From Paramacrobiotus metropolitanus (taxonomy: Eukaryota; Tardigrada; Eutardigrada; Parachela; Macrobiotidae), in the NCBI RefSeq assembly GCF_019649055.1, contig NW_026570252.1:248001-312000 (forward strand): a stretch of 64,000 bases of DNA. Reading direction: 5' to 3'. Every line of letters starts with the position of its first letter. The stretch's first letter is position 1. The notes beneath the pieces are model-generated. The model ran no database searches, had not been told where the DNA came from, and saw nothing but the letters and a program-made list of their open reading frames with translations. Of this stretch, positions 10,464-40,460 are shown one piece after another. The position numbers and the translations under genes were made by a program.

Positions 10464-11151
10464 CTAGTTACTAATTACGAAAAAGGGCACGTATTGGGAC
10501 ACGAAAGCCATGACGGCCAATGTCGCGATGATGATTCCCCATGGCACGCTAAACAGAAGGGCGATAAAGCGGCTGAACCCAGAGCCGGCGCGCTGAAGTA
10601 TTTTGTGGATTATGGCTAGAAGGCCTGCTAAGAGGATTATGGACAGACTTCCCGTAGCAATGACCATAGTTACGAACGACAAAGTCCCGGCTTCTGCAGT
10701 ACTGCGTACTCCCAAAAGCTGGTACCAGATGCCGTTATACGGCAGTGTTGTGGTGCCATTCCAACTGGAATTAGCTGTGTTGGGCGAGCCTCGTCTGGGT
10801 GGTGGAGATAGTACACGAGGGCTGTGTGGGCAGGAATTTGCTGTACATCCGCACCGTGGTTCAGCCAGTTCAGTCATCCTCTGTATACTGCAGACAACAA
10901 CATTCATACAGATATAAAAGCCGCAACTCACCCTGATTGCATTATACTAACTACAAAATAAGGGCTCAGGAAAGACCTGATGTTTCTGACAATATCGATG
11001 AGGATTTCCATATTCCGATCACGGTTGCAGCGTTGTGGGAGCCCGTGTTCTCCGCCGGCAGAACAATGTACGGCTCGTAAATGGACCCGTGCGACAGCGA
11101 TACGAGCACAAAGAGAAGCGAAACGCACAGCATTACACCGCGTGCATCCAT
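10464..11151 (-). pseudogene. small signal-peptide/two-TM protein family, locus A (frameshifted)
   Basis: This is a member of an unrecognised family shared with loci B, C and D. Exon 1 (11151-10932) opens with an ATG and a signal peptide (MDARGVMLCVSLLFVLVSLS), then YEPYIVLPAENTG. In locus C the same segment continues as …RNLEILIDIGKQIR. Here the matching RNMEILIDIVRNIRS lies in another frame, so one base is missing (or two are extra) near 11030. A 44-nt intron (GTGAGT…CTGCAG, 10931-10888) leads in phase to exon 2 (10887-10464): IQRMTELAEPRCGC, a Pro/Thr/Asn-rich linker, then two hydrophobic helices (…VTMVIATGSLSIILLAGL and …LFSVPWGIIIATLAVMAF). The helices and splice phase are preserved, so the break is recent or an assembly error. 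Function unknown; a membrane-anchored surface protein is the simplest reading. Confidence 0.6.
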
Positions 11152-11900
11152 AATCTCGAGTCGTCAAATTGGTATTACAGTTCAAATTAACGCCAAAAGG
11201 ATTCTAGTGGTTTAGTGATCAGAGTACTGATAAGCAGTGTAGTATCTGCAGTGATAAAAAATTTGGCAGTATCACTGTAATGTAGCAAATTTAAGAAAAA
11301 AACTGCTGACCTGTGCCTAGGCAGTCCATTTTACTGCGTTGAAGAGTGATGAGTGAACGAGAAAACGGTACTATAAATGGCCCAGACTGATTATTACTCG
11401 AACAAAGCATTTGTATCCTGTCACATTCAACGTGAAAAGGCCAGGTGGATCCGTTTTCCGCATAACAGTCTAACTATTGTGCAGGAAAGCCGCCAACCCC
11501 CGAACCTAACCGGTTGCATCGGCGTTGCAAAGCTATGAACAACGCAAGTGGAGCGCGGTCAACATTTTGACCTCAAATCAACGTCGCAGGAATTTATTTC
11601 AGTGCTTCCATGAATGTACTCTTCAACAAATTTACGAAACTCTGTAAGACGGCTCGAACTACCATTAGGTTAAAGAATTACTGAGTATGTTAGCCTGGCC
11701 GTCTTTAAAAAAAAACGTCGAATTAATTGATTATAAGGTACGGCTGTGTTTATTTGTTTTATGTTTAAACTTTTAATGTGCATAAGACGACAAACACATA
11801 TTGATGTACTTTTAGATAAGGTACGGCTGTGTTTTAAATTTTAATGCAGCGTGCATGAGACGACAGACACATTTTGATGTGTTTTTAGGGAATCTTAAAA
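11152..11900. other. divergent intergenic spacer between loci A and D
   Basis: Loci A (minus) and D (plus) point away from each other across this 750-bp spacer, so it should hold both promoters. An imperfect direct repeat (GATAAGGTACGGCTGTGTTT…, about 11730-11810 and 11813-11880) lies just upstream of the D start. No TATA box or other element could be assigned with confidence. Confidence 0.5.
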
Positions 11901-12868
11901 ATGACCGTCGCACTGCGCTGGACGGTTGGTATTGCATTGTGCATTCTTTGGAACGTCGGGACGGGACAATCGGAATCTCCCGCAATTGCCCCACAGGATT
12001 CATTGCAAAGCCCTGTGCCTCCGTCGTACTATAATCCCAAGTCTGGCACTGCGACTGATGTGGCTTACCAAAGTCTTCAAGTCTTATTAGAAATTCGGTG
12101 AGTCTGGTTCAGCAGTAGGACATGCCGAAAGAAGGTCGTCGTAGGTGCAATATCGCTATTGCGATCACTGTGACCGCTACGAATACCGTCATAGACGATC
12201 GTTTTGAAACTTCGAGTATAACACAAAATCACAATAATTTATACGGTTAATTAGGCTATTACTCATTTTTACTGCATGTAATTAATTTAGCCAGTTATGC
12301 AAGAATTTGTGCTGCTATGGTTTTCGCTTCCTAATTCAGAATCTCTTTCGCTAACAGATATAATATTTACTCACGCAGACGTAACACTTAATTTTCGTGT
12401 GGACCATTCGGAGAATGGGATGTGTTTTCCTTAGTGAAATCATTTAATTATATTGAAAACCTTTTCCAATCGAAAGACTTTCTTCCGAATATCCACTTAT
12501 CTACTGTTCATGATGTGCATTCTGAAGGACCCGTTGACGAACTAATCCGGTGTCTGTTGATTGTAGTGCAACGCTGGAAACGATTGCGGAACGATTACCG
12601 TCGCCGGCGAGCGCGGATTTTTCGTGCTCTGCCGCCGATCTGCCGGATGGAAAATACACCGATGCCGAGCCGTCGTCCTCCCATTGGCTGTGGGATATGC
12701 TAACCGGGAGTAGGCGGTCCTTGGGACGTTGGCCAGATTCTCCTTTACGTTATTTCGGGGATAATTGTGGCGGTGTTTGTTCTCCTAGTGGTTTCCTGCA
12801 CTCTGGAATTCAATGACTTCGCCATGGAGATCACGAACAAGCTCCTCGCTTCTGCTGCAGCGAGATAA
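11901..12868 (+). pseudogene. small signal-peptide/TM protein family, locus D (frame break before the TM)
   Basis: Exon 1 (11901-12097) encodes a signal peptide (MTVALRWTVGIALCILWNVG), a Ser/Pro-rich ectodomain and …SLQVLLEIR. It ends in phase 2 at a consensus donor (CG|GTGAGT), the same position as in loci B and C. Exon 2 starts after TTGTAG at 12567 (ATLETIAERLPSP…). A good membrane helix (QILLYVISGIIVAVFVLLVV) and a short tail end at 12868, but they lie one frame over from the exon start. I tried every GT/AG pair in between and none gives the needed shift, so either a base is inserted or deleted around 12703-12735 or the sequence is wrong. Read without correction, the protein stops near 12816 with no helix. 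Sharing of the phase-2 junction and the leader layout supports family membership; the ectodomain itself is very divergent. Confidence 0.5.
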
Positions 12869-13480
12869 GAGCCATCTCTTCATTGATTAGACTACACGGA
12901 AACCGGGATGTGCTACATTTAGAGCGACAGTAATAAATTTTATGTCTGTTAAATTTTTGGGAAGTAACCGGAAATTTTGTCTGACTTGTATTTAAATAAG
13001 TTTTGATGTGCATACTTTCATCCTGTTTAGAATGATGTCCAACGCTCGTGCGCAAAAAAAAATATGTTTGTGTACGAGTTCTGTTGCGAAGTTGTGGCAT
13101 AACGAATAGCATTTCGATCTTCAAACCGATTAAAGTTGTAAAACAAATAGGTAAAGTAGCCGCTAGACGAACTTGAACTACTTCCAGAGTGTGATGTACG
13201 GAAAAGGTACCCACACGCTGCTCGCTTTGTCCAGGTAACGTGTGCGATTTCCGATAGGGAGCGGATCTAAAAGGTCGCCTAGCGGCTACAGTGCAAATCT
13301 TTTGGCAGTAGCATACAACAATGCAAAAATGTGTTTCGGAGCGCATGGAAGCCAAATTTTTCGTGGATAAACGCAAATTGTATGCCATGTATCTGCACCG
13401 CAGAGAGGGATGTGCTAAGCATGGGATGTCACTTGTGTCAGTGGGGATACTATTGCGCCTTCCCATATGAAATCTACGGC
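12869..13480. other. intergenic, no gene recognised
   Basis: Open frames exist on both strands but carry no recognisable motif. It separates locus D from a retroelement tail fragment. Confidence 0.4.
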
Positions 13481-13788
13481 GGCAAACGCAGGCTGCAGCT
13501 GCGGTGGAAGCGGAAGAAAAAAAGGCGCAGCTGTTTGCGTACGAGTACTTGTTCGGCAGGTATATCTTTGCTCCGATAGCTTTTGCACCAATGGGCCCCT
13601 GGGGTCCGGCCGCCATCGCCATTATCAAAGAACTGGGCAAACGACTAGAACAGCCTACAGGGGAGAAGAGTTCCCATGAATTTCTACGCCAAAGATCGTC
13701 GTTGGCGATAATAGTGATAGTGACAGTGCGATACAGCGGGGGAACGCGACCTCAGTTTTGGGAACAATGGAAGGAGCAGAAAAGTTAA
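13481..13788 (+). pseudogene. retroelement reverse-transcriptase C-terminal tail, fragment 1
   Basis: The frame reads an Ala-rich helix (QAAAAVEAEEKKAQLFAYE), then RYIFAPIAFAPMGPWGPAA, IIKELGKRL and [14 protein letters not shown]. The pattern Y.F.PIA.ET.G..GP…L.ELG.R…FL.QR.SI.IQ.GNAA.(V/C)LGT recurs at four other sites in this window. I recall it as the C-terminal end of reverse-transcriptase-like proteins of animal retroelements; the RT core itself is absent here. The RGNAA end is lost in this copy. The naming rests on memory of the family, so treat it as moderate. Confidence 0.5.
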
Positions 13789-16700
13789 ACTATGTTTTAA
13801 TGTTGTAAAACTGTGATTTTTTTTATTAAATAATGATACATTGTACCACAGGCGAATAAAGATAGATCTGCACCCAGTAACTTCCCTAAAAGAGCCGGCA
13901 CTGGTGTGGGTGTCGTGGACAGCGAAGGCTTCTTAACGCGCCAAAGTTCAGTTGACGGTGATTTCTGAAAAAGAATACAGCTGCGATTGACACGGTTGAA
14001 ACCTACCCCGACCTACGGTGACTACATACCTACGGTGACTGAACAAAATGGCCGTCTCCATCGTTTGGTTTACTACTCCCTAACCATTCGTCGCACCGTA
14101 ACATGCTTACACTCATTCGATAGAGAATTTTACGGACTACTACAAACAACAAAGTTCGTTAAAACAAATTAAGACATGCTCGTAAGCAATGGGGTGAAAA
14201 GAAATTTTGTAAAAATTTATCGTGTCCCAGCTCCCAAAACTCAGAATCTTGAGCCATTTCGTTCCCGTAGGAGCCCTTTGAGCTTTTTCTTGTGTTCTAT
14301 CTAGAGGATGGGTTTTTATTTTAATTTTTAAAATAAATGCTGACCTGGGGCTCGCGCCGGATGTGCTATGCAGGCAGCGCATTTGCTGCTGCCAGAGCGC
14401 AACAGCAAATGTTGGTTCAATTGAAATGTGTAGCTAATTCCCTGTTCCTGCAGAAACTACATTGATTAAGATCCGTACTGCTTGCATTAGTAAATAAAGT
14501 AATGAATCAATTTCCAGACTTTGTACTTGCCGTTTTCACGAGAATTCCATGTGCGTGGCAACAGTTCGCTCGTCTCCTGAACGAACGCACAATAAAACAG
14601 AGGACAACTGCTGTACCAATGACCGTAATGTAAAATACTGCGATCTACTGCGCTGATTAACAGCAGTTTTTAATTTAGGAATAGGGGATTTTGAATTTTT
14701 GTTTCCGGTACATCCCCCAACTCCACCTAATTTTCCAAAATAAATTTACTGTTAAGTTAGATCTTTACATAAGGCCAGGTTTACTTACATTTTGCATGTT
14801 GCGAAGATTGCTCTTTCGAATGAAACAGACATGCTGCCAATCAGACATTGGACTGACCCAGCAAACCTTGGTAAATCAGACGGCCATTTTGTTCAGCCAC
14901 CCGGTACATAACAAAATTTATGCTATTCTGAAGTATTTGCAGAATGTAAAAAATTTAAAATTCGGAGCAATTTTTCTTGTTCGATCTTAAAGTCGGTTCG
15001 GTAGACCAGCGGACCAAAATTTCAATGCTAAAACCGCCAATTTTGGTCCTAGGATGAAGCCGTTGTTTTTCGGTAGTTGTGCCAAAAACCGCTCTGTTCG
15101 TCAAATGTGTCGCACTAATTCAGACACGCGTACGAGTTTTGAATCACTAATTACCACATGGTTGTTGTTTAAGGATTATTATTTGCCCTAACGAAACGTT
15201 GTACCTTTGTACAAACTTCCAATAAACAAACTGCAAGCAAAAATTAATAGGTATTTGCGCGGTACCGTTTGAGAAACATAATAACCTAATTATAATCAAA
15301 AATTCATAAAGTTGAAATAACGTTTTGCATATGGTGTTTTCAAACGGATTTATGTCTTAATCAGCATTGTTCAGAAGGACTGCGGATCACGTGTCTCGGA
15401 TGAAATCACACAAGGTTGTAGAAGCCTTTCTTCACTAATTCTTTGCCACTGCTGGCCGTCCGCGGATTCTTTCGAAATGTCTTACGCAGGGATGACATAA
15501 TTACATTATTCCAGCGCAAGACGTCGCGAAAGACTGGATCGCGGATCCTCATAGCTGGCATAAAATTGGTGTAATGAACGACGGTAGAAAGAAAGAACGA
15601 GACAATGTACGTAGCCAGCTTGATAGCATTGCGGTGAAGATGAGTGAAAGCTGGAGCTTGTGCCGGGCGTTAGCTTGGCTTAGAAAACCGGCGTAAATTT
15701 GATACTTGCAGTTACAGCAAATGCATTTTAAATGACTATATTTTCCTCGTTTTTTACTGATCGCTGAACGAACTGGTCTGTTGAAAAGCTTTAGAGCGAG
15801 TGAACACATTAGTTTTAACGTCCATAATGAATTGTTCTCGTATATACATGTAATGTAAACTGCTGGCTGTTGAGCGATATAACCTGCGGCTGCTTTTCTC
15901 AATGTTTTCAGCAGCTAATGACCGTACAACGTACCATCGTGTTTCGCTTTCTGCAACACATACAGGTAATTTATTTTGACAAATGAGCTGCTGAGGTTAT
16001 CAGTCTCGGCGAGCAATGTTGAAGGTACTGTAGTTTAAGAAAGTACTCACCGCTCCACGAATTATGCAATATACGCTGGTCGAACATAGTTCTCCGATCC
16101 CGGTATCATTGTACAGTTTACACCGCCAGAAATCCTTCTAAATTTTTACAATAAAATAAATAAAAACTAATGATAAAATTATTTCTGAAGATTTCAGGAC
16201 TCCGGGTGTTTGTATAGTACCGGCAAAAAATGGCTAGAATATTTTTATAAAGGTGAGCGCTGACAGTAGCGAATTATAAAGGAAAACACGTGCCGCCAAC
16301 GATAAATTAAGTGTGACTAGTGACTCTTAATACATGCAACTTTAGATTCCGTCAGAATTTTGACACGATACCGTATTTTTCAGTTGGACATTATTTGCCT
16401 AATTGAGATTAATTGAGCCAATCCTAATTATTTGTTAGCAATTTACTGGAACCCAACTCAACGGCGCGACAGTGCCATCAAATATATTAGCCAGACAAAA
16501 ATTCTCAGATAACTTGTCGCTTCAGGTGGTTGTTTTTCTTTTGATAAAATACAGCGAAAATATGCCGTTGCATAGGGTTGGTAAGTTTAACGTGGAAATG
16601 TACGCCAAACAACAGAGCACTTCATTGATTTTGATTGGCATCTCTTTTACTTTTCCTTGCCGAAGGTTGAACAGTTCGTTGTGCACAGGTATCTGGATGA

Positions 16701-17318
16701 AAGAAACAACATCATAATATTCACTGACGTGGCTAACAGCACCGTAAAACGACAGGCAAAACAAATCTGTCCAATAACATTAAAGACTAAAACAACATCG
16801 GTTTTTCGGTAGTGCCTTCTTAATATTTATGTTCTTTCAAGGAAAATGTTGTGAATTGTAGAAGAATGTGGGGGTAAAAATAAATCAAAAAGCACACAGT
16901 ATTTTTAAAACATTTTATTAGTGCTCCCTCATTGCAGTACCTTGAAACTGGCGATCAAAACGCTATCCGTACACAAACACTATACGGAATTGCCATGCTA
17001 AGCTTCGTAGGGGATTGATTACCCGCTCAAAACTTTGACAAGAAGACCCTTGAGGCATATAGTCAACAGACAGTTCTTGCGTACAGGTATGTATTATAAA
17101 AGGTGCACAGCAATGCTGAACTGACGCCCCCAGAGCCGCATCAAACTGCCTGTTACCAGATAAAATGTCGCCAATGATGCCGTTAAAAAGGATATTTCAA
17201 CTTTCGTTACCATGCAGCTTTATCTCGACGGCAATCTGCCAGTAAGTGTAACCTACTCGGAAATTCACTTGGCAGCCTTCCGCCAGCGATGCCCACGTGC
17301 AATTGTTGGCGCTTGCCC
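13789..17318. other. repeat-bearing intergenic region
   Basis: No gene recognised. It contains one copy (about 15360-16060) of a repeat family also found at 21330-21850 and 37590-38340, and one copy (about 16260-16620) of another family also found around 38570-39480 and 40840-41030. Open frames here have no recognisable domains. Confidence 0.5.
15360..16060 (+). repeat. dispersed repeat family R2, copy 1
   Basis: It shares with 21330-21850 and 37590-38340 the ordered landmarks GGATTCTTTCGAAATGTC, ACATTATTCCAGCGCA, GCGGCTGCTTTTCTC and CAG(T/C)CTCGGCGAGCA(A/G). All three copies have the same orientation. No shared open frame is seen, so this is probably an old non-autonomous element. Confidence 0.6.
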
Positions 17319-17404
17319 GATAAACCGCGGATAACGGGAGGCCGGGAGCTAGGCTGGCGTCGCTTTTGCAGCATCCTACCGGCCGGGCTTCCGTTATCCG
17401 CGGC
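17319..17404. repeat. GC-rich hairpin (family H), copy 1
   Basis: The arms CCGCGGATAACGGGAGGCCGG (17325) and the near-complementary CCGGGCTTCCGTTATCCGCGG (17383) enclose a loop containing GCAGCATCC. The same stem with a GCAACATCC loop is found at 20632-20709, and in weaker form at about 23565 and 30890. The downstream flank (GATGCACTGGGACACC…) is shared as well, so this is part of a larger repeat. Confidence 0.75.
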
Positions 17405-18446
17405 TCTGCGATGTTACGGTTGGTTATGATGCACTGGGACACCAGCTGGCTACCGAGACACGCTGCACTCCCTACGCAACCACAAAACCCACAAGTAAGC
17501 CTTACAGCGCTCCTGAAGGTCTATTAAATTATGGCTGCATGCACGGATGATCTATCTGATTTAAATATATCTGTTAATCAATAATTTAATTCACAAAAGT
17601 ATTTGTAGACCAGTACGTGAGCTCCACAGTTAACTTACATATCCAGCGTCTGCACTACTGTTATACGTACGGATACATTCTATACATTATACATTACATG
17701 CATGCCCGTCTTTGGCTTTTTGGAGCAGGTCCGCACGACCTCGCGCCAGCTGGAAATGGCCGAACGTTCCCGGCAAACGAATAAAATTTGCTAAAAAAAA
17801 GTAATCTTTTCGCACATTTTGATTGCAGTTTTCGATGCGTCAAAGCCGCAAAAACTCACGAGCAGCAAACGGACCAACACCTATGTTTCTAAAACCTTGC
17901 CTACGAACAACACTACCTTCCTGGATTGTAAAAAAACTTCCTACAAAATGAAATGTTGTGAGATATCTGACAGCATAAATTGTACTCTTTTCACGCCATT
18001 ACCGGTATGTACAAACCGTTTGGCTACGTAATACATTAAAGGAGTGACAAAAGTGCTAGGGAGTGTGCGAGAGCGAAACTCACCGAACAAGTACTCGAAT
18101 TTGGTACTTTTTGCCGGCACAATTCGCGTTTGTAAAAATTATTTTTAGTGCAAATTTTTCTGGCATACTCTCGTGGCAGAAAGAAGGAATCCCATAGACT
18201 GGAAACGGTAAACAAGTGGCACAACGGTTATCTAAGAATTCATGGATCGTTTTTGTTTCCGTAGCAAGGCTGACCATTAATAAAGCCAGCACCAGCGACA
18301 CGTGCTGGGCAAAAATCTAGCTGCAAATGCCCAAAAACTGGTGTAACCTTCGCTAACAAAAATACAAGATTAACAGCATCTGAATCATTAACAGAAAGAC
18401 ACAATTCCTTGGCGTCATTGCCGACTCGAAGCAGAAAGCACGATGT

Positions 18447-19356: not shown

Positions 19357-20631
19357 ACTGTAGACAATAAGGTTGGTTTTACTATTAAAACACTGGAAGC
19401 GCTCCAATGGGAAGGCGGTTCAAATCCAAATAACAGCGAAAATGTAGTGCTTCATAAATTGGCAAAGACTGCAGTGAGCACGTCTCAACTCACTCGACTT
19501 TACCACGCTGATAAATTAATGATGTAAAACAGCTATCCGATAGCTGACTGGTTATTACTAAGTCAAAGGCGTATCCGGGTGTGCCAGCAGAAAGGATCTC
19601 AATACATCCGGGTGTTGTGTAATGGTTGAACGATTGCGCATGCAGTTTTAACGGCGGACCGAGAAGCGTTTCTGATGTTGTGCGCAGATCATTCTGCGCA
19701 ACAGCGATGCACATGAGCGTACCCGTCACCTGTAACCGTTTAACTCGTCCGGATTTTTCAGATATCCGGTGGATGCCTTGGTGATTAAGCCATCAGTAGG
19801 AGGACGAGAACGAGCATGTTCACGATGCCGAACGGACTCACGCAAGGAGTGGAAACCACCCGCCAGGACTTCGGGAAGCGATGCCCGAAGTATAAAATGC
19901 TTTGAAGTTGTCATTTTAAAATTACCGGTGCTAGTCTGTGAAGTGCGAAATGCTTTTCATAGGTAGTGCAATATTCTATAAATCTTATAACCTATAAATC
20001 ACTTCTTGTATCCTGTAAATGGCCATAGGTGTTGTTCCTAAGTTACGTAACAGGTTCAATTCATAAAAAAGGATAAATGGTAGAAATATTGAAAAATAAT
20101 AATTCAAGAGCAGACAAGAGACACTGACATCCCAGCAGAAAAACCCTTAATTTAAATACAGAAGATCCCGGTATTTAATACTAAGTTAACAGAACAATTT
20201 TCATATTGCTGGCTCTCGCCGATATCTGTAGCGCTTTACAAATCTAAACTGTATAGCTGCTGTCCGCATAAAATTGGAAAAAAAACAACCCCAGGACTTA
20301 TACTCAAGCGTAGCTTGTATATCAAAAAGCACTTACTAATGCTGACAGCACGAAGCGAAACGCCGCTACTGGAAACCAACTTCACACTTTGCTGAGACGC
20401 GTCATATGTATTATCGACCCCTTCTCTTAATAATGTCGCCCGTGATCCTGATCCTATTGAGGAGCTTTCCCGGAAAGCTTTTAAACTTGTTTAATTCCGT
20501 TCTTAGTCGGGTGCATCTCGTCGGAGTCCGCAAGTTCATGGGATCTTGGCGGAAATTCACTGTGATGGACCGCCCAATCCTCACTTTAACGATGTCCTCC
20601 GCGGTTTAACGCGAGTGCCGGCTCCTTCTCG

Positions 20632-20709
20632 AAAAACCGCGGATAACGGAAGCCCAGCAGCTGTCGCTGTTGCAACATCCGTCTGCTGGGCTGCCGTTAT
20701 CCGCGGCTT
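20632..20709. repeat. GC-rich hairpin (family H), copy 2, nearly perfect
   Basis: The arms (20634-20660 and 20683-20709) are complementary over about 26 bases with one mismatch and one bulge, built on CCGCGGATAACGG. The loop contains TGTTGCAACA, itself palindromic. It is the best preserved of four copies in the window. Confidence 0.85.
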
Positions 20710-21329
20710 TTCGGGTTGACGGTCGGTGAGGATGCGTTGGGATACCCGGACGCTACCCGGACACACAAAACCAAACGGGCGTACCTTTCTGTACGTTATA
20801 CAGCGCTTGTAAAGGTCTTCTATATACGTATGAATTGTTGTAAAAGACGATGGATTGCCATCTGGTATGACCACATGGTCGCGCACTCGGCTTCTGCCAC
20901 CTTATTGCTAATTAGCAATTAGCAATATGTAATTAGCTAATTAGCAAGTTTTTATTATAATAAAAACCGGTTTTCTCAATGTGCAGCTTCAGACTTCAGT
21001 TGAACGCACAAAACGTACGATTGCCCCACATGTACACAGTTTGTCAGCAGGCTGAGAAAGTGTGAAGACGACTTTGAAAAGAAGCGTTCGGCAACAGACA
21101 GAGTACTTGGTATGGGAGCACGCAGCCATTTAGTTATACATAGTACGTATCTGTTTGAAAAATCAAACATAAATAAGTAATTCTAGATAAAAGAAAACTG
21201 GATGAGAAAACGTAGGAAAAATTAAAAAGCTTAAGAAACAAAGACGGATTTGGAGCACCCTAGTTCGCTTTAGCACGGTAGATAGGCTGCTAGATTACCA
21301 GTCACTTGGAAACTGTTTTTCCTGGATTC

Positions 21330-21850: not shown

Positions 21851-21864
21851 CGGCATTATTTTTA

Positions 21865-22544
21865 AGGGATTTGGCCCGGTACATAGCACCAAATTCGTGT
21901 ACATCCACGGGAACTTTCGCTGTCGCGCACTCCCAAACACTTTTTTGCATTGCTTTATGGTATTTTGTAGCCAAAAGAATTGTTTACGTAGGTGTGAAAA
22001 CCGTTTGCGCGCGCAATATCCGGTTGCAGAGTTATGAGGGTAACAAAATTCCAAAAAGTTTAAATGCATTCAGGTGTACCAAAAGTCTCATTATGGGCCG
22101 ATCCCTTTCAAATTTTGCACATAAATGCACATAACCATGAAGATCGTTCTTACAGGGATTCAGACTTCCACGATTTTTTTCGAATTTTAAAAAGAATTTT
22201 AAAATTTTTGAAATTCATTGTAAAATTTGAAAAACACGCTAGAACAATGGATCGGTGTAAGAACGATCTTCAGGATTGTGCGCATTTACGTGCAAAATTT
22301 CAAGAGGATCGGTCCATAATGAGACTTTTGCTACACCTGAATGCATTTAAACTTTTAGAATTTTGTTACCCTCGTAACTCTGCAACCGGATGTTGCGCGC
22401 GCAAACTTTTTTCACACCTACGTACACAAATCTTTTGGCTACAAAATACCATAAAGCAATGCAAAAAAGTGTTTGGGAGTGCGCGACAGCGAAAGTTCCA
22501 GGGGTTGTACACGAACGTAGTGCTATGTACCGGGCCAAATCCCT
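21865..22544. mobile_element. 680-bp foldback/MITE-like element, copy 1 (complete)
   Basis: Almost the whole element is an inverted repeat: arms at about 21865-22160 and 22255-22544 begin AGGGATTTGGCCCGGTACAT and are separated by an AT-rich centre. It is flanked by TA on both sides (21863-21864 and 22545-22546; TTAA if one more base is counted), fitting a TA target duplication of the Tc1/mariner type. It has no transposase. Related copies lie at 33065-33715 and, truncated, at about 63003-63510. Confidence 0.8.
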
Positions 22545-22546
22545 TA

Positions 22547-23660
22547 AACGTTGCAGCCTGTTAAAGTTAACTCGGCTGATGGGTGTGTCCGTCTGAATTA
22601 TGAGGAAGGCCAGTATAGCCGGGATTATAAATCGGAATCTTCACTGTATGGCCTAAAAAAGAAATAAAAAATAAAAAAAATTAAAAAAAAAATTAAAAAA
22701 TATTATAAAAATAATATAAAAAATTATTATTATAAAAAAATGTTATAAAAAATTTTTACTACATTGTAACAGTATATATTGTAAAAATTTTGACTACACT
22801 GTAACAGTATATATTGCAGCAGTACATATTGTAACATTTTTGACTACATTGTAACTGTTAAAATGTTATAAAGAATTCTGACTACGTTGCAACAGTATTT
22901 GTACTGTTATTGCTTACTGTCTGTTTTGTTTCAAGCCGCCTGACATCCATGCTCTTATGGGATTCGGCGGCACTTCCGGTATGAACAGATAGCTCGTATT
23001 CGGTAGGAAATTTTGCAGGTAATGTTTCCTTTATGTTTTATAAAGGATAATTTTTTAAAAATAACAGTATTTTTTATAATATTTTAAATAAATGTTGCTC
23101 ATGATACCTTGCACTTAATATTAACAAAACTCACGATACCGAACGTCGTGTGTTATCTTCTCGAAATTTCAAAAAAATATCAGCAGGGCATTTATGTTCA
23201 ACAGTCAGTTTGTATACTTCTAGTCAGAAACAATGGCACTGGCTATCGCTGAAATAACTGAGCGAACGCCGGTTCTATAAACTGACTAACGCGGTGCTGA
23301 TTGCTGAGCCCAGCATAGTACCTTCCTATAAAAAATGTCGGTCCCGGATGCCGTGGTGATCTAAGAAACCTTATCCTAATACCTTTTAGGTACGATTTGA
23401 ATTAAATTCCGTGCTGATTCCAGAACTCTCCCGCGTCGACAGCCTGTCAGTTAACGGGATTGTCGAGGAAATTCATTTGGGTGGACCGCACCATACTCCC
23501 GTCGGCAATGTCCACTTTGGTGAGCGTGGACCGTGGTTAATAACTACCAAGCGTTGTCTGGTAAAGCCGCGAATAACTGGAATCCAGCAGAAGCTGCTTG
23601 TGCAACATCCTGTCTGCGGGACTTCCGTTGTCCGCTGTTTTTCGCGATAACGGTGTTAAA
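22547..23660 (+). repeat. repeat block, copy 1 (uninterrupted)
   Basis: This block matches, in order and orientation, 24885-25084, 25875-26180 and about 30516-31090. Landmarks are GCAGCCTGTTAAAGTTAACTC, TTTGTACTGTTATTGC, CTTATGGG.TTCGGCGGCACTT, GTCCCGGATGCCGTG, ATTCATTTGGGTGGACCGC and the degenerate family-H hairpin at 23565-23650. It includes a low-complexity A/T tract (22652-22760) and imperfect tandem TTTTGACTACATTGTAACAG units (22755-22880). The second copy is split by two later insertions. Confidence 0.8.
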
Positions 23661-25871: not shown

Positions 25872-26396
25872 TTATGGGCTTTCGGCGGCACTTTCGGTAT
25901 GTACAGATTGCTAATATTCAGCATTAGATTTCACCGGTAGTGTTTCACAGGTAGTGTTACAGAGGATCTGCTGTGTACAGCAGGAAATCATGCCGCTTAA
26001 TTTAAATTTAAAAACAAAACCCGGTATACTTTATTCTTTCGATATCACTTGCTCTCGCTGTTTGACTGCCTTGCAGTTATAAACCTTTCGGTTGTTATCA
26101 GTTATCAAAAATTTGTATGCGACAACCGTATCACAATACCGAGCGCCGTGTTTCCTATCCACTCAAAACTTTCAAAAAAGTTAATTCATTAACTAGAGTT
26201 AAAATCCGGGTGACCTGTTTTTGCTCTCTGGCTGTCTTTGTCTTGCTGGCCTATTATATTACTTTCCCGGATACGATGTTCTTATCATGCTAAGCTGACT
26301 GAATGCAGAACTCATTCTCGATTATTGCCACTAGCTAAACTTGAATATTTTTGCTAAACTGACGACTGTTAACGTGTGCACTTCTTAACGTGTGCA

Positions 26397-29300
26397 ATGC
26401 CACCGAAGAAGGATCCCAAGAACAATCCCGCACCACCAGCCAGCCGGCCACCGAGAAAACGCGGGAGGCCTGCGACACCACCGCCACCTGCCGTCAACTC
26501 AGTAGTTCACGTCGTGCAACCGGCATCTCAGCAGCCAGACTTGAGAACTCTGATTGAGCAGCAGGCCAAGCAGCAGCAACAATTGGACAGTATCTTGCAC
26601 ATCCTCAACCCAACCCCCGCCGCAGGCACTGCCACGACAAAGCGCGTAGGACCCGGAACACCGCCACCGCCTGCCGTCAACTCGGAGGTTCAGGTTGTAC
26701 TGCCGGCATCACAGCAGTCAGACATCAGAACCCTGATTGAGCAGCAGGCAAAGCAGCAGCAGCAGATCGACAGCATACTGCAAATGCTGAATCCCCACCC
26801 GGACGCTCGTATGTCCCCGTCATCAGACACGGGTCCACATCTCCGGGTCCGCATCGGCGACAATGACCAGCGTCATATTACGAGCGAGAGCAACCCGCGA
26901 CCACACCGGAAACGCTCCAGAAGCCATGGAAGACACCGCAACGATCGAGGTAAGAGCACGTCGCAATCCAGCTCACGTTCCGAAGACTCTCCCCCTCGCC
27001 GCACTCTCAAAGACAGACTTGGCCGCCGTGACGTATTCAGCAGACTAGGTGACTTGGCAGATACCCACTATCGTCAATCACGCCATCTGCCGGCTGTACC
27101 CGAGAAAGTCCGCTCCAAGCTGCTGGATCCGACCCGATATGTCGACTTTGACAGCCTCCTGCCAAAGAATCGGGTGGAGAAGCCCAGGGACGGAGCATCG
27201 AAAATGGTGATCAGCAAAGGTCAGGTCATTTTGAAACCGCATGATGGACACGTCACAGTAGACTCATTTCCGGCATGGATCCGCGCTTTTACCGTATTCG
27301 CTGCATATCGGACGTCTGTCATTCCTGAACTGACCATTCCTCTTCTGAAGTATCAAGACTTGATGGCTGGATACGCCGACCGTGGTATCCCAGTAGATCA
27401 ATGGCTTGATTACGACAAGCAGTTCCGAACGTACATGACGGCTCACCCATACAACTTTGATCTATGGGGACACCAGCACGACGAAACCTACGCCGACACC
27501 ATCCAAAACGGTCACCGGGAAGCGACGTCGGAACTCCACGTGCGCGACCGGAACCAGAGGGCCCCCACCGAGCGCGACACCTGCCGAAACTGCGGATTCA
27601 GTGGTCATTTCATCGCGCAGTGCCCGGTACCACGCAAAGGATTCCCGGTCACCAACAGCAGCCCTTTCGGACAAGCACCGCCGCAGACGGCAACAATATC
27701 TGCAAAAACTACAACTTCACCAACTGCACCGAGCCATGTAAGCGGCAGTTCAAGCACGTCTGCCTCACCTGTGGAGGGGCCGGCCACAAGGCTCCGCAGT
27801 GTCGCAACGCCAACTGACATCGCCACAGTGCCTGCAAAGGTCACGACACCCCTGCGACCAGAGGTCTTTGCGAGACTGCTGGCTGACCATCCTAACCCAC
27901 GTTTTGTTTCTTTTATTGTTTCTTCCTTAATAACCGGCGTCGATCTTGGCTACCGCGGACCACAGTTTTCCCGCCACACTCCCAACTCACACACAGCCCG
28001 GAAACACCACCGCGCTTTGGGAACCAGCATCCAGAAAGAGGTCGCCCGGGGTCACACTGCCGGCCCATTCACGCAACCGCCCCTGGAAAACTTTGTCGTA
28101 AACGCCTTGGGCGTCCGCGAAAAGAAAGACGGGGACATCCGAACCATCATGGATCTATCACAACCAGCGGGTCAAAGCGTCAATGATTCCATCTCAACGG
28201 ACAACATGCCACTGCAGTACTGCTCCGTCGACGATGCCATTCGGATCATCCTTGACCTCGGACCGTCTACAGAAATGGCAAAGATGGACATCAAATCCGC
28301 CTTCCGCCTCATTCCCGTCCGCCGAGAAGATTGGAACCTCCTTGGATACTGCCATGACGGAAATTACTATTTCGACATAATTTTGCCATTTGGGTGTCGC
28401 TCAGCTCCCTACCTTTTCGAACAGTTCGCGGAGGCCGTCTACTGGGCGGTCTCCAGAAGCTGCGGCTTGTCATCATTCTTGCATTACGTTGACGACTTCT
28501 TGTTCCTCGGCCGCCCGAGAACGGGACAGTGTGCAACGCTAATGCATTCAATGCGCGAGACGTGCAACGAGCTTGGGGTCCCTCTCGCCGAAGACAAAAC
28601 CGAAGGACCCGCATCTCGGTTGACATTCCTCGGCATTGTCCTGGACACTGTTGCCCACACAGTAAGCTTACCTCCCGGTAAGCACCAAGAGATCCTAGAC
28701 GCCCTCCAGTCTTAGTCAAACCGCACACAATGCAGTGCATCAGAGCTCCAAAGCTTGATCGGCACACTGCAATTTGCATCAAAATGTGTCCCCACCAGCC
28801 GGCTCTTCACCCGCCGGCTCATCCGACTTTTGTCAGAACAATATGGCCAACGCACGATATACCTCAATACGGACTTTCACCGCGACATTGACTGGTGGCG
28901 CACCTTCCTCCCGAAGTGGAACGGGACCGCTTCCTTCATAAAGCCATCGTGGAGCACCTCCGACATCCTCCACCTGTACACGGATGCTTCCGGCACAATC
29001 GGTCTGGGAGCGTACTTCAACGGTGAATGGTTCCATCACCGTTGGCCGTCTTGGATTCACGAGCTATCGGTTCCCATTGAATACCTCGAAATGGTCCCGA
29101 TTCTATTGGCAATGCTTGTTTGGGGGAAGCAGTTGTGGTGCTGGAAGATCATCTTCCACACCGACAACGAAGGTGCAACACGAGCGTGGGAGAGTCTTCG
29201 GTCAAAGAATCCAGGCGTGTTAGATCTCATGCGTCGCATGACGGCTGCAGCCGCGGATAACAACATGACCTTTACGCTCAAACATGTTAGAGGCGTGGAC

Positions 29301-29438
29301 AACGGCATAGCTTATGCATTATCTCGTTTCCAGGTATTGCGTTTTCGACGTCTCGCACCGCTAGCGAATGCTCTTCCAACGCCGTGCCCGAATATCTTCA
29401 ACGATCTCCGCCTAACCTACGAGCATCCCCATCGCTAA
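26397..29438 (+). pseudogene. DIRS-like gag-reverse transcriptase-RNase H with one in-frame stop
   Basis: The first in-frame ATG is at 26397. The N-terminal part holds a duplicated module (PPPAVNS…ASQQ.D.RTLIEQQAKQQQ…LNP) and an Arg/Ser-rich stretch. A CCHC knuckle (CRNCGFSGHFIAQC) follows near 27583-27625. A second Cys-rich motif (CKNYNF…CLTCGGAGHKAPQC) lies in another frame up to 27817, suggesting that gag originally ended there and that an indel has fused it to the polymerase frame. RT motifs include MDIKSAFRLIPV, LPFGCRSAPYLFEQF and YVDD at 28485-28496. A TAG at 28713-28715 breaks the frame, which then continues in the same frame (ELQSLIGTLQFASK) through RNase H (YTDASG, HTDNEGATRAW, DNG.AYALSRF) to 29438. 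Function in life: copying the element RNA into DNA. Confidence 0.85.
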
Positions 29439-30386
29439 GCCGTCTCCTGGAAGCCCACATCGCAACATCCACACGGTCCACATACCGGGTAGGAGCAACG
29501 CGCTTCATCAACTTCTGCACTGCTCGCCGTCTTACACCACTGCCAGCGGAGCCAACTATCGTGGCCCGGTTTATCGCCAGCCTACACGATGAAGGCGCCA
29601 GCGCAAGCACCGCCAAAGTTTACGTGGCCCCCATCCACAACCTGCACCGCGAAGCCGATGCTGATAGCCCAGCCAACGCTGACATCGTCAAGCGCACGAT
29701 CAGTGGCTTCGTCCGACTGTCAGCGTCCAAATCAGACAAACGACTTCCGATCACCATGCCACTGATGCGCAAACTGAAGGACCGCCTGCGTCTCAGCACA
29801 CTGGACGTCTCCGATATCACTATGCTGTGGTGTGCCTTCACCATGGCATTCTTCGGTTTCATGCGCATAAGCGAGCTCGTCTCACCATCACCGACGTCTC
29901 ATGACCGCCACCGCACTCTGCTGTCGCGCGACGTGGAGACGGAAGACGACACCATTACAGTGCACATCAAACGTTCAAAACCGACCAACTTGAAGTGGCG
30001 TTGTACTTCGCTTGACCGCGACTAACCGCTCGGTTTGTCCGGTGCGAGCATACGAACGCTACATCCACAGCCGCACCACCAAAGCCCGCGCGGACAGTCC
30101 ATTCTTCTCCTTTCGCTCGGGTCAACACCTCACACGAGCATCCGTGCTGCACCACATCCGGAAGCTGCTCTGGGACCACCCTGAACGCGACCGCCTAAAC
30201 ACGCACAGCTTTCGCATTGGAGCCGCCACTACCGCAGCCGAAGGAAACATTCCTGAGCCGGATATCATGCGAGCCGGACGGTGGAAGAGCACCTGTGTGC
30301 GTCGCTACATCCGAAAGACCAATCCCAGTCAAGTAAACCTGTACGGAACGTCTTGTTTGGGGGCAAGTGGCCAGAAGGAAGGCTAG
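29384..30386 (+). pseudogene. tyrosine recombinase of the DIRS-like element, frameshifted
   Basis: This region overlaps the end of the RNase H frame by about 55 bases, as is usual for the class. The first part reads an N-terminal SAM-like segment (HIATSTRSTYRVGATRFINF) and the first catalytic Arg in FGFMRISELV near 29860. Near 30000 the frame shifts by one base, and the rest continues with SVCPVRAYERYI, LNTHSFRIGAAT (His and second Arg, about 30199-30230) and the Trp/Tyr end GRWKSTCVRRYIRK (30280-30315). All catalytic positions are still visible, but the frameshift would prevent a working enzyme. The recombinase joins circular element DNA into the genome without target duplication. Confidence 0.85.
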
Positions 30387-31090
30387 GGGGAGCAATGGGC
30401 GCGCGTCTTCGACCTCCTAATCGAAACGGCGACATCTGTCCGCTCTGGCCTTCTTCTCGGTTTCCCATCCCATTACCGGCACTCGCTCACCATGGATTTT
30501 AACATTCATTAGTATTACCCGTAGTCAGCGTGTATATTGAAAAGCAGTGGCACTTGCTGAGTGAAATCATTCAGCGAGCCCTGGTTTTACCATTTGACTA
30601 TATAGATGCCTTTCTGAACCGCATCATAGTACCTTCTATAGATCGGTCCTGGATGTCGGTCCCGGATGCCGTGATAATTTAAGAACCTTATCCTACGTAT
30701 TGCCTTTTAAATACGATTTGATTTAATTTCCGTGCTTATTCCAGAACTCTCCCGTCGACAGTCTGCCAGTTGACGCGATCGTCGAGAAAATTCATTTGGG
30801 TGGACCGCACCATACTCCCGTCGGCAATGTCCATTAAGGTGAGCGTGGTCGACCGTGGTTAATGACTCCCAAGCGTTGTTTCGTAAAGCCGCGAATAACG
30901 GGAATCCAGCAGATGCTGCTTTAGCAACATCCGGTCTGCGGGACTTCCGTTGTCCGCTGTTTTTCGCAATAACGGTGTGCGATGATGCACTGGGACACCC
31001 GGACACTGTCGGGAGACTCTGCGGAACTACACACTCACAAGTAAGGTCAGAGCGCTTGTGGAGGTCTATTAAGTTGATCCAGAGACATTA

Positions 31091-32104: not shown

Positions 32105-33918
32105 TCACGACATGAATAAGTAATGGAAAAAGGGTCCGACAACTCGGGATACGAAGGTCATAAGCGCCAGTACCACGCCGAAGATACTCAACGGCACACC
32201 GAATAGTTTGGCAAGAAATACCATACCCTGAAGGCCACCTCGTCGGGAAACTTCGATGCAGATGGCAAAGATCAAGCACATAACGATCAAACAAGCGATA
32301 ATAAAAAACACAGTGCATAAGAGCATCCCCATGAATTCGTCAAAGCTGCCGATTTGCAACAGCTGGTACACGAAAGCTGTATCGGTGGTATTACTCTGAC
32401 TGGCGTTCCGTGTGGTCGTCGATTGGCTGGTTGATTTCGCCGATGCAACAGGAATTCTCTGACGAAGTTTCCCTTTGCATTCACACTGCGGTTGCGCTAA
32501 TGCGTCCACAACGGTCGCCATTTGTGCGCTGCAAAGTGAATCAAATGCTGAATAGTGGCGTATGGTAGGAACTTGTCATTACGGAGCTGTCGTTACCAAA
32601 ATTACCGCCCGCAAAGACGGACCATCGTTACCGAATTCATGCAGGCACTGAAGCATGTATGGATATACTCGTTCAAGCTACTGGTAGAAAAAGTCCATGG
32701 AAAGACTTACGATCAGCAGTACTGTGTACTTTGATGGAATTTGCATTAGAAGCGCTTCGCTCGGTATATGATTTCAGATTTTACACAAAATAATACACTC
32801 TAGCACCTCAAACGCGCCGCTACTTAAGCCATAAACATAGCTGGCCGGAAACTCCATTTCTGATAATTTCCTTGTGTAATTCGTAAACGTTTATATCAGT
32901 TATAACTTTCCAGTGCCGTTGCAGAAGATTATATTTGTGGTGTGGAGCTTTTTTTAAAAAATCGGGCAGAAATAGCGATTTCAGGGCGAAAGATGTCAAA
33001 CGATATAATTACCATTACACATAACCATACACTATACAGAGATTGATTGCTGCCGATATTACTAAGGGAAGTGGCCCGGCACATGGTGCCAAATTCGTGT
33101 ACCTGCACGAAAAGGTTTACTTTCGCGCACTTCCAAACACATTTTTGTTTCGATTTATGACGTTCTGTAGCCAGATGATTTGTATACACTTAGGTGAAAA
33201 CCGTTTGTGCGCGCAACATCCGGTTCGGAAGTTAAGGCTGTTAGAAAATTCCAAAAAGTTTAAATGTACAGACTCTGTATTCAGGTGCACCAAAAGTCTC
33301 ATTATAGACCGATCTCCCTCAAATTTTGCACGTAAATGCACATGACCACGAAGATCGTTTTTACACTGATCCACTGTTCCAGCATGTTTTTAAAGTTTTA
33401 AAATGAATTTCAAAAATTTTAAAATTCATTTTATAATTTAAAAAAAATCATGGAAGTCTGGATCGGTGTAAAAACGATCTTCATGGCCATGTGCATTTAC
33501 GTGCAAAATTTTAAGGACATGGTCCATAACGAGACTTTTGGTACACCTGAATGCATTTAAACGTTTTGGAATTTTCTAACAGCCATAATTCGCAAACCGG
33601 TTGCTGCGCGCACAAACGGTTTTCACGCCAGTGTATACAAATCATCTGAGTGCGCAAAAGTGACACTTTTCGTGCAGGTACACGAATTTGGTACCATGTA
33701 CCGGGTAACTTCCCTTAAGCAGTTTCTGACTCAAAACATGGTACGGACCTGATCTGTTTCCCAATATCGATTAAGATCTCCAGATTGCGATTGATGTCTG
33801 CTGCAGCGTTAGCTGGCAGAATAATGGACGGTTCGTGGTCGATCCCGGACGACACCGGTACGAATACGGTGAAAACAAAAAATACATGTACAAGTAGCAG
33901 TATTCCACGTGTTTCCAT
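32105..33918 (-). CDS. small signal-peptide/two-TM membrane protein family, locus C (intact)
   Basis: Exon 1 (33918-33749) and exon 2 (32528-32105) join over a phase-2 GT-AG intron to about 197 residues. Exon 1 has the signal peptide METRGILLLVHVFFVFTVFV, then HEPSIILPANAAADINRN and LEILIDIGKQI. The ILPAN/EILIDI core is shared with locus A. Exon 2 starts after TTTGCAG with AQMATVVDALAQPQCECKGK. A Ser/Thr/Gln/Asn-rich linker with several N-x-S/T sites follows, then helix 1 (MLLCTVFFIIACLIVMCLIF), a short basic loop (EVSRRGG) and helix 2 (LFGVPLSIFGVVLALMTFV). The donor ATCAG|GTCCGT is imperfect; without splicing, exon 1 would stop within 11 residues (33715). The 1.2-kb intron contains a foldback transposon (33065-33715). 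A partial copy of exon 2 and this intron lies at 40190-40750. Confidence 0.6.
33065..33715. mobile_element. foldback/MITE-like element, copy 2, inside the locus C intron
   Basis: The ends AGGGAAGTGGCCCGGCACAT and …CCGGGTAACTTCCCT are inverted repeats flanked by TA (33063-33064 and 33716-33717). The internal arms match copy 1 (TTTCGCGCACTTCCAAACAC, CCAAAAGTCTCATTAT). The right end lies only about 30 bases from the exon 1 donor. Confidence 0.8.
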
Positions 33919-36709: not shown

Positions 36710-37061
36710 GGGTGCTGCAGCAGAAGCGGCTGAACACCGGAAGTGCGGGAAGTATGCTGACTTGGCTGACCAGTACATTTTCCAACCCATCGCGTTAGAG
36801 ACAATGGGAAGCTGCGGTCCCAGCACCAGGGATTTTATTAATGAACTGACAAAACGCACCAGGGAGCAGATTGGTGAATTTCGCGGAAAGTATTTCCTGT
36901 TACAACGTTTTAGTATTGAAATTCAGGGTGGAAATGCTGCTTGTGCCTTGGGAACTGCTGAAAAGCAGCATGAGCTGGATTGTTTATTTTTAATTTGTGC
37001 AAAGGTTGTGTTTGCATATGGAGTAAATTGTATCCTGCAGACAACAGAACAGAATTTTTAG
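36710..37061 (+). pseudogene. retroelement reverse-transcriptase C-terminal tail, fragment 2
   Basis: The best preserved tail copy on the plus strand. It reads an Ala/Glu helix (GAAAEAAEHRKCGKYADLAD), QYIFQPIALETMGSCGP, FINELTKRT, then YFLLQRFSIEIQGGNAACAL with GT after it. The sequence then becomes non-family. Only the end of the protein is here, as expected for a 5'-truncated insertion. Confidence 0.55.
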
Positions 37062-38678
37062 ATGATTAAAGAGCATTTCCAATCACGTTTTTTTAAATAT
37101 ACCCTAGTGTAATTGTTCTTAATGAAAGTTGAAGTGGTCGACATTTTTATTGCCCGGAATAAAACTCGGCTCTTTACTGCAATTCGGCAAAAAGGGCGCG
37201 AAATATCTAGCAAATACCATATATTACGCGTGAGGCGCGGAGTACACGTAGTTCTATACTTAAACAGTATATTTGCACAACTAAATCATACTATTTTTCT
37301 ATTTCAAACCGAATTCCCAGCAGTTCCCGCCCTAAAAATGCCGTCGGCTTCGCACGAAAGTCGGCCTCTCCTTAAAATTCAGGACATTTATTGCATACCT
37401 TTTTCATTAAGACAGTAGTAATCCCGAACAGATTTACCGTACTTATTGTGCAAATTACTATCTGCATTACTATTCATCTCTGTTGATGGAATTCAGCTGC
37501 TGCAGTTGGATAGGAAGTACAATTCTTCAGTAATACAAACTTTTTACGACGATATCTATCCAGTCACTGGAGCAATGCCCGCGTAATCGAGTTTAATTTA
37601 GAAACTCCCGGGCATCATTTCTGAAACGTCGTGCGCCGGGATGACGAAATCGTATTACTCCAGCGCATGATGTATCAAAACCCATGTCCGTGAGCCTTTC
37701 AGGGTCCGCGGCCTGTTAGGACTGAGCCGGTACAGAGGCGTGATCATTAACGGCGCTGATTTCTGACGTCATCGCAGAATGGAGGACAGTGAATTTTCCA
37801 AATGATGCAGCTTCTGTTGCATAGAATGACGTGAACACTATAGCAAAATAAAGCATAATGAAGACAAATTGTTTAAATCCCGTTGTGGAAACCATTTGAT
37901 CACCAAAGGGGGCATCAAAGGGGCGGTTTCAGCACAATATGCGGTAATATAGGCGGCTGCGTCGAACGATAATTCAAAATGTAAAACCGGCGTTTATATT
38001 ATTACCGGCGTTTATTTTATTACCGGCACGTGCATTTTCATGGACAGTATTTTTTTCCATTCAGCTGATAGCTGAACGCAACGGTATAGCATAATGCGGT
38101 ATAGCGAGTGACAACCAAATGTCTATGGTATAAAGCATAAACTTCTACTAAGCTGGTCTTACGACAATTACTTGTACAACCCGGGGCTGCTTTTCTGTAA
38201 TCTTCGAGTAAGGTATAAACGATGGTGAAACATACAGTATCTTCAGCATCGCGCTTCGCTTTCCGCGTAACATAGTTATTTTGATTGATGAGCTGAGCTA
38301 GGTTATCGGTCTCAACGAACAGCGGGTAATTAATCGAAGGAATACTGCCTGTTGTTGTTCAACTTTTGAATCGCCCAGCGCGATGACTGATTTCTGCAGC
38401 AGTCTGCAAGTTTCTGCGCATCAACCAATCTTATAAGATATACAGCATATCAAAGATTAGAATTAAATAATGTTATAATTAAAAATAAAGTTGATCTGAA
38501 AATTGTACTGCAGCACCCGAAAAAGCCGGCTGCCAGATTTTTTGGAAGGTAACCGTGATGAACTGCAATGAAAAGCGCGTGCAGCTGGCGATAAATTAAC
38601 TGTGAGTAATATACTCCAAGTCACCAATGTTATATGAACCTGCAAAAATTTTTTTATTGCATACCGCCTGCTTCTTAA
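37062..38678. other. repeat-bearing intergenic region
   Basis: Holds copy 3 of repeat R2 (37590-38340) and the left half of a family shared with 16260-16620. No gene recognised. Confidence 0.45.
37590..38340 (+). repeat. dispersed repeat family R2, copy 3
   Basis: It shares CGTGCGCCGGGATGACG, TACTCCAGCGCA, GGCTGCTTTTCTG and GGTTATCGGTCTCAACGA with the two other copies. A central part (37740-38150) is not shared, so this copy probably carries its own insertion or has diverged. Confidence 0.55.
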
Positions 38679-39333
38679 CCCTTAATGGCCTGACATATTT
38701 TTATCCGTGCCTAACTGCATCAATCTGATACAAGTGATAGCCATTGGTCTGCTTAGCGTTGCTAGCTTATGAGAGAGAGAATAAATCTGAAAGAGGCACA
38801 GGCAGGCTGCTGGACCTTTATACATTCAGCACACAGTGCTCGCATGGAGACCTACTTATGCAGCCAGTACAGGGACAGAACTTAAATGCTCTCTCTTGCG
38901 CTGACCATTCTGTAGGACAAAAGAAATTTCATTTTCGGATGCCGGCTTGTATTATCATCCGGCATAAGGACACCATCGCGGATCAGAATTTTTTTCACGA
39001 TTGTTAGCAAACGTACCATTTTCGAAACGTGCCTGCTGCAGCTAGGACTGTCGATTGTTAGTGCAGCACCCATGATTTATCTAATCTGCAAGTGCTGTGC
39101 CATTAATTTGTGCTAGAAGTTTAACTTACTTCCGGCAAATCATGTATCATCTTGATACATCAGTTTTTCTCAAAAACCATTATCTTCTAAAATTTGCAAA
39201 AATCGTTAGGAGTATGCTGTAGGTGTCGGCATAGCATACCACGGAAGAAAAATGCAAATTTTGAGCCTGTACGGTATGTACAGTGCGTTTTTAAATGTGA
39301 TGTATCAGTTTTACGATGTCAGGCCATTAAGGG
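38679..39333. mobile_element. 655-bp piggyBac-type MITE
   Basis: Perfect inverted ends, CCCTTAATGGCCTGACAT and its exact complement, are bounded by TTAA on each side (38675-38678 and 39334-39337). TTAA targets with CCC-beginning ends are the hallmark of piggyBac-superfamily elements. No transposase frame lies inside, so it is non-autonomous. The perfect ends suggest a fairly recent insertion. Confidence 0.88.
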
Positions 39334-39337
39334 TTAA

Positions 39338-40189
39338 TTAAGCTGGCGCTAACTCAACGTGAATACGTACCAGCCCGACTGTGCTGTCTGTCTGTACCTT
39401 CTGTTAGTTATCGGAAATCCTCAGGCAGCTTGTCGCTTCGGGTGGTTCTCTTTATTTTGATGCTAGTGAACAGCGAAAGAATTTTCATTGCTTTAAGGCA
39501 ATAATTGGCTTTAACTGACAATATATGCCGAAACCGAAAGCAAAAGATAACATATACATTGAACATTACATTCATCGTTTTCTGCTGTACTGTACATTTA
39601 TTAGTGTTTGTTCTCGAATCATCCGTTCGAGGCGGCAATTAATGCATAGCGGAAGCACCGCGGTTTCTTAGTAAATCGGCTTTTAATTTTACCAATTTGT
39701 CCATCTTACGATTGCCTAAATGATCATCTAAAAATCATTTTTGATTCACAACCGCTTGTATTTTCGAATTCCCATTGGATTTGGGACGGATTAAAAGCCT
39801 GAGACGAGAAACGTCCAAAATGCTGATTTTCGGACTAAAAACATGTGTTAAGTTTCCTTGTAGTTGTGTAGCGGATGCAGCGTGTTCCGGGTGTGGCACA
39901 CGCTGCATTCGCGACGCAATCACAAGTGTGCCTAGGATAATCCCAGGCTGTTGCTGTAGTCCAACCAGGTTAATCTCCCCCAGAGATCCTGCTGGCTGGC
40001 ATAATTCCAACGTGATACAGTAGAAAAGAAATGGAACTAATGTTGTTACGGAAAGCTCCTAAAGCACCTAAAGTCTAACGAATCATCCAAGTTTATCCCG
40101 TAATTTCTACCGCATTAAAACCGCGACACGGCCATAGACCGTATCTGTACAGAGGGTCATTCAGCCAAGTGTGTTCACTTTGTGTTCAC
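39338..40189. other. repeat-derived sequence, no intact gene
   Basis: The part at 39840-39990 reads on the minus strand as a divergent relative of the end of repeat R4 (…INLVG…, SRMQRVP). The part at 39990-40140 matches 53810-53960 (CATAATTCCAACGTGATACAG-like, then CATCCAAGTTTATCCCGTAATTTCTA-like landmarks). No gene can be supported. Confidence 0.4.
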
Positions 40190-40460
40190 TTTGGCTTATT
40201 TTGGGGATGCAACGGGAATTTTCTGACGGCGTTTCCCGAAACTTTCACGCCGTAGTTTCGCCAATTTGTTCACAACGGTCGCCATCTGCGCGTTGCAAAG
40301 TGAATCGAATATCGAGGCCATGCCGTGTAGTACGAACTTATCATTACGGACCTGCCGTGGAAAATTGCCGTCCGCAAGAACCACAAAAACCGGTACCGTT
40401 TCATGAAGGCATCCAGAGGTACATACAGAGTACATTCGCTTATGCAACTGCTAGAAAAAA
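40190..40460 (-). pseudogene. locus E: broken exon 2 fragment of the small membrane protein family
   Basis: Reads AQMATVVNKLAKLRRESFGK, then IPVASPK and a stop, matching the exon 2 start of locus C (AQMATVVDALAQ…RIPVASAK). The acceptor has changed from TTTGCAG in locus C to TTTGCAA here. Intron sequence upstream (to about 40750) is also shared with locus C. The linker and both helices are missing, and no exon 1 was found upstream. This is clearly a dead partial copy. Confidence 0.75.

Follow-up and report, generated by a model that had tools for sequence, protein, structure and literature searches.

Fam-L/Fam-M-like proteins of the DUF3671 type (PF12420), which belong to malaria parasites, are small, carry a signal peptide and paired membrane helices, and are subject to gene birth and death. 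Members of the SBF family (PF01758) are transporters with many membrane helices, and those of the Prominin family (PF05478) are much larger, with five. Here we analyzed a 64-kb stretch of DNA from the tardigrade Paramacrobiotus metropolitanus (contig NW_026570252.1, positions 248,001 to 312,000; "the window"), which contains three related gene copies (A, B, and C), a remnant of a further copy (E), and a separate gene-like locus (D). We propose with moderate confidence that A, B, and C make up a small, locally duplicated family whose predicted proteins are about 160-200 residues long. An earlier sequence-only reading of this DNA had called the family dispersed; however, A, B, C, and E all lie on the minus strand within 30 kb and therefore constitute a local cluster (Table 1).

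None of the three copies reached the curated cut-off of any Pfam or NCBIfam family, in agreement with the earlier view that the family has no name. The below-cut-off Pfam matches differed from copy to copy, and a search with nine pieces from A, B, D, and E, left unmended, gave none above cut-off. The membrane part of B weakly matched the end of the SBF profile (E-value 0.00074; 19.7 bits against a cut-off of 24.3), and full-length B scored 16.9 bits (E-value 0.0054, below the gathering cut-off), but B has just two membrane helices, and A exon 2 and C were not listed. The outer helix and first membrane helix of C weakly matched Prominin (E-value 0.0075; 14.8 against 34.3 bits), and C also matched DUF3671 (E-value 0.012; 15.5 against 34 bits); A exon 2 and B were listed for neither. 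The DUF3671 families are those of malaria parasites, whereas the window that holds A, B, and C carries SPRTN-like and receptor-like genes.

It could be speculated from these matches that the three copies are distantly related to a known polytopic family and no longer carry its sequence signal. We regard this as clearly improbable: the matches vary among copies, A exon 2 has none, and hydrophobic composition explains them sufficiently. A PDB profile search with exon 2 also returned no match up to an E-value of 10, and Foldseek found none in the PDB for a low-confidence structure model of C exon 2. Among five of the eight exon pieces, NCBIfam gave one match (E-value 0.51) and PHROGs gave four weak ones, the best (E-value 0.0082) to an entry of unknown function. 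With C exon 2 as the query, prokaryote genome contigs yielded 65 pattern matches and no relative. A narrow search of the literature, mostly limited to tardigrades, turned up no named family with the plan of A, B, and C. We use "orphan" for a family without relatives in the libraries searched (Pfam, NCBIfam, PHROGs, and PDB). The closest likeness is to the lineage-restricted, fast-evolving families of small secreted or membrane proteins in animals: A, B, and C are likewise without library relatives, loosely constrained, locally duplicated, and accompanied by broken copies.

To assess the relationship of the copies, we built profiles without each copy in turn and searched them against 2704 six-frame segments of the window. 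The matches in these leave-one-out searches are to unmended segments; in the profiles, pairwise comparisons, and codon fits, copy A is a read-through of its frame break. Exon-1 profiles recovered A, B, and C with E-values of 6.9e-10, 1.9e-8, and 1.1e-11, respectively. Exon-2 profiles recovered A (5.1e-5), the membrane part of B (0.005), and C (1.5e-8); for these figures exons 2 and 3 of B were joined with the 71-nt intron still in place, and the results from correctly spliced B supersede them for that copy. With B spliced, none of 5000 shuffles scored as high as the full-length pairwise comparisons A-B, A-C, or B-C. For exon 2 alone, 37, 0, and 5 of 5000 shuffles, respectively, were as good. 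A profile of A and C matched B with 97% probability over 151 columns, and none of 100 block-shuffled versions of B did as well. At the DNA level, the sole A-B match in a blastn self-comparison (E-value 1e-3) was in exon 1, with 72% identity over 89 bp. These comparisons show A, B, and C to be true paralogues of one another.

Table 1. Features located in the window, with the gene copies first and neighboring elements below.
Feature	Position	Strand	Remarks
Copy A	11151-10467	minus	Exon 1 11151-10977, intron, exon 2 10887-10467; from translation, exon bounds, and homology
Copy B	19356-18450	minus	Exons 19356-19181, 18833-18725, 18653-18450
Copy C	33918-32108	minus	Exon 1 33918-33749, exon 2 32528-32108
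E, dead fragment	40459-40192	minus	C-like intron end and 31 codons of exon 2
D, gene-like stretch	11901-12868	plus	Signal-peptide-like start, phase-2 intron, frame break, one hydrophobic stretch
Stretch in C intron	32740-32636	minus	Weak likeness to B exon 1 (E-value 0.026); contains a stop
Palindromic foldback repeats	21857-22546, 33057-33718, 63060-63492		About 0.4-0.7 kb; arms 82-92% complementary
Retroelement	26373-30386	plus	Several reading frames
Repeat flanking the retroelement	23228-23656, 30542-30978		82% identical
Short related repeats	17318-17461, 20630-20764, 23557-23654, 30881-31007		Inverted hairpin around CCGCGGATAACGG / TTATCCGCGG (by eye)
Receptor-like genes	43011-44021, 50105-51136, 56550-57521	minus	80-89% DNA identity
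Amino acid permease	58052-60060	minus	PF00324; pieces with E-values 1.5e-52, 9.9e-76, 5.3e-16
Permease-related stretches	44655-45193, 52491-53047		Repeats of the permease 3' end
Permease N-terminal piece	60441-60773		Seen by eye; Pfam did not find it
Low-complexity repeat	54061-54705		Lys-Pro-rich (KKPKKP); three of its frames are open

No further copy was accepted in the window, either in six-frame profile searches (in the leave-one-out searches, among the best eight matches of each) or by tblastn, taken to an E-value of 1, with pieces of A through D and with E as queries. The stretch within the C intron that resembles B exon 1 was not counted as a copy; it is perhaps a fossil exon, perhaps a chance resemblance.

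Copies B and C can each be read with an open frame. Once spliced, B has no stops across its three exons, and the two-exon frame of C is open throughout after removal of a 1.2-kb intron. On the other hand, exon 1 of A is broken in frame, by translation, between about 11032 and 11020. The junctions that had been proposed for B (19181/18833 and 18725/18653) and C (33749/32528) are consistent with GT..AG introns. As had also been proposed, a phase-2 intron follows a helix, and its position is common to A, B, and C: by reading, the first intron in each lies at "I-AG|" with a Ser codon next, and it splits a helix-like stretch. In A the donor at the family position is weak, and a consensus GTGAGT, likewise in phase 2, lies 45 bp downstream. 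Only B has a second intron (71 nt, GTATAT..GACAG), directly before the first membrane helix, and its excision brings that helix of B into alignment with those of A and C.

The translations of A, B, and C share a common plan, which together with their homology bears out for these copies the architecture of signal peptide, core, helix, linker, and terminal helices in the sequence-only reading. Each begins with a hydrophobic stretch ending in a conserved S-x-G, followed by a (Y/H)EP core, and each has the same three hydrophobic segments in hydropathy plots. The Ser/Thr/Asn/Pro-rich linker contains two N-x-S/T sequons in every copy. Beyond it lies a hydrophobic hairpin, whose short loop has basic residues and whose second helix bears a VP(W/L) motif. 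By eye, the first membrane helix is preceded by acidic residues and followed by basic ones, which suggests that the N-terminus is outside.

An alignment of the three proteins has 152 gapless columns, 28 of them invariant. With region limits placed by hand, conservation was greatest in the signal part (8 of 21 columns invariant), followed by the EP core and helix (9 of 40). The corresponding counts were 2/25 for the linker, 3/30 for the first membrane helix, 1/9 for the loop, and 5/27 for the second membrane helix with its tail. A structure model of C exon 2 contained two long helices (predicted local distance difference test score 60, predicted template modeling score 0.31).

Pairwise codon fits by the Goldman-Yang method gave ratios of nonsynonymous to synonymous substitution (dN/dS, or omega) of 0.565 for A-C, 0.411 for A-B, and 0.296 for B-C, with likelihood ratio statistics against an omega of 1 of 7.26, 8.30, and 17.36, respectively. 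By comparison, 20 pairs simulated at an omega of 1, without indels, gave estimates of 0.77-1.54. The range of 0.30-0.57 suggests that the protein is held, if loosely. Because A is broken in frame, some of its divergence may have built up free of constraint. Exon 2 of A and C differ by about 0.58 substitutions per site. When exon 2 was evolved neutrally over half this distance, 183 of 5000 lineages stayed open, and none of 5000 did when frameshifts were added at the rate seen in the C-E intron comparison. Codon use in five of the eight exon pieces was better than in all but 2% of nulls. Set beside the DNA-only alignments described next, these results suggest that the frame and the physical character of the product have been kept while the sequence itself is loosely held.

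Several results weigh against a maintained protein. In DNA-only alignments, mismatches were spread nearly evenly over the three codon positions, both for A and C exon 2 (46/110, 41/112, and 48/111) and for A and B exon 1 (8/28 at each position), and nine of the 14 gaps in the A-C exon-2 alignment were not multiples of three; either the constraint is loose or the alignments are poor. An absence of constraint on the protein would have counted against the sequence-only reading; the evidence is divided, with moderate constraint by the codon fits and a weaker picture from these DNA-only alignments. Codon use did not single out the second exon-1 piece of A (21 of 400 nulls as good), B exon 1 (27/400), or B exon 2 (66/400), and in B exon 2 a different frame scored higher. 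The genes used to train this measure came from the same window, and for the two 420-base exons the nulls could contain stops. B exon 2 by itself is also the weaker match in the shuffle comparisons given above. The splice junctions of all three copies are predictions from genomic sequence, and the first-intron donors are non-consensus (GTCTTT in A, GTGCTG in B, and GTCCGT in C). The roughly 500 bp that follow A and B contain no polyadenylation hexamer; one lies about 350 bp downstream of C. As for the protein features, the number of sequons is not unusual for the composition of A or C (as many in 950 and 639 of 5000 cases, respectively; 214 of 5000 for B), and the scores of the C exon 2 model place it at low confidence.

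One explanation for these results is that all of the copies are decaying paralogues of a once-functional gene, none of them now used, and that B and C still read open because their descent is recent. The broken state of A and E, the near-even codon positions and out-of-frame gaps, and the non-consensus donors would all fit such decay. We give this explanation some weight while considering it unlikely, as omega fell below 1 in three comparisons with likelihood ratio statistics of 7-17, and as B, C, and A exon 2 are open at a divergence that few neutral lineages survived.

We therefore return to a maintained product. With somewhat better than even confidence, and reasoning from predicted proteins, we suggest that A, B, and C encode a lineage-restricted, small, glycosylated membrane protein, displayed or resident in the secretory pathway, under gene birth and death. 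In such a protein, cleavage of the signal peptide would leave an outer, glycosylated N-terminal part of some 90 residues, followed by two membrane spans joined by the basic loop on the inner side. The outer helix may be the part that binds a partner, in which case the stalk and hairpin would need to keep only their physical character. A bolder form of this proposal, in which a lineage-specific family of glycosylated two-helix proteins diversifies its outer helix from copy to copy, in the manner of recognition or conflict systems, with none such described in the lineage, is in our view decidedly unlikely. Should orthologues and transcripts exist, the locus would be a compact case of the birth, exon change, and death of an orphan membrane-protein family within 30 kb, the exon change being exemplified by the intron that B has at a place where A and C have none. 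Taken alone, it adds one orphan family to the many that a poorly sampled genome should contain.

E had been called a dead fragment and is one. It matches C with 71% identity over 271 bp (blastn E-value 8.7e-27), including about 160 bp of the C intron, and its exon (76/101 matches) and intron (117/161) parts are about equally conserved. The acceptor AG is gone and a stop follows after 31 codons. By these features E is what remains of a copy resembling C, and it looks neutral. Copies would arise by local duplication and disappear through frame breaks and truncation. The earlier tally of two intact, two frame-broken, and one truncated copy holds for B and C (open), A (broken), and E (truncated), but D drops out of it. 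These four states are consistent with fast birth and death, although the sample is small, with four copies in a single window. An immune-like role, as raised in the sequence-only reading, would be speculation.

In contrast, the sequence-only reading had also counted D as a member, and this was not upheld. Full-length D was matched as well by shuffles in 851 (A), 85 (B), and 658 (C) of 5000 cases, and D exon 2 in 2138, 448, and 968 of 5000, respectively; the best of these six tests, full-length B-D, fails correction for multiple testing. For D exon 1, the fractions of 2000 shuffles that were as good were 0.20 (A), 0.72 (B), and 0.08 (C). D was not among the matches of the A, B, and C profiles at E-values below 10 in the six-frame segments, and 85 of 200 block-shuffled versions of D scored as high as D itself in a profile comparison with the family. 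The best tblastn match of D exon 1 in the window was to the exon-2 linker of B (E-value 0.24), which we read as reflecting composition. D resembles A, B, and C only in its signal-peptide-like start, its GT..AG intron in phase 2, and one hydrophobic stretch. Its donor is the consensus GTGAGT, and the hydrophobic stretch has coding-like codon use (4 of 400 nulls as good). D thus appears gene-like in itself and separate; as its scores mostly fall within the range of its own shuffles, it is not a demonstrated member of the family.

Another possibility is that A, B, and C belong to a mobile element or an integrated virus, as its cargo or envelope-like genes. The window is repeat-rich: one of three related foldback repeats sits within the intron of C, and the retroelement between B and C has a reverse transcriptase above the Pfam cut-off, with a zinc knuckle and tyrosine-recombinase matches below it. 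We nevertheless consider this origin highly improbable. Nine comparisons of 300-bp flanks, of which three involved D, gave no convincing match (27 of 1000 shuffles were as good as the best one), and the copies carry introns. The seven pattern matches of C exon 2 in viral contigs included no relative, and a viral fold library gave five matches to its low-confidence model, the best with an E-value of 5.9. Shared promoters were likewise rejected, as six comparisons of 300 bp upstream gave the same unconvincing best value (27 of 1000 shuffles).

The retroelement is presumably DIRS/Ngaro-like. Across the window, Rfam at its gathering threshold and ARAGORN with bacterial settings found nothing. The SPRTN-like protease gene has two Pfam domains above cut-off; together with the receptor-like genes it marks the DNA as eukaryotic and probably animal. 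The three receptor-like genes all weakly match Srx, and one of them has a 7tm_1 match (E-value 1e-6) just below the Pfam cut-off; one copy was searched in the PDB and gave no match. These genes alternate with permease ends as a tandemly tripled unit, the 3' end of the permease being repeated twice more beside them. The permease itself is apparently split by introns, and the only solved chain found for it at an E-value of 0.001 was a lysine-specific permease. We take this type of permease to be one of fungi and bacteria rather than animals, so the gene was possibly acquired.

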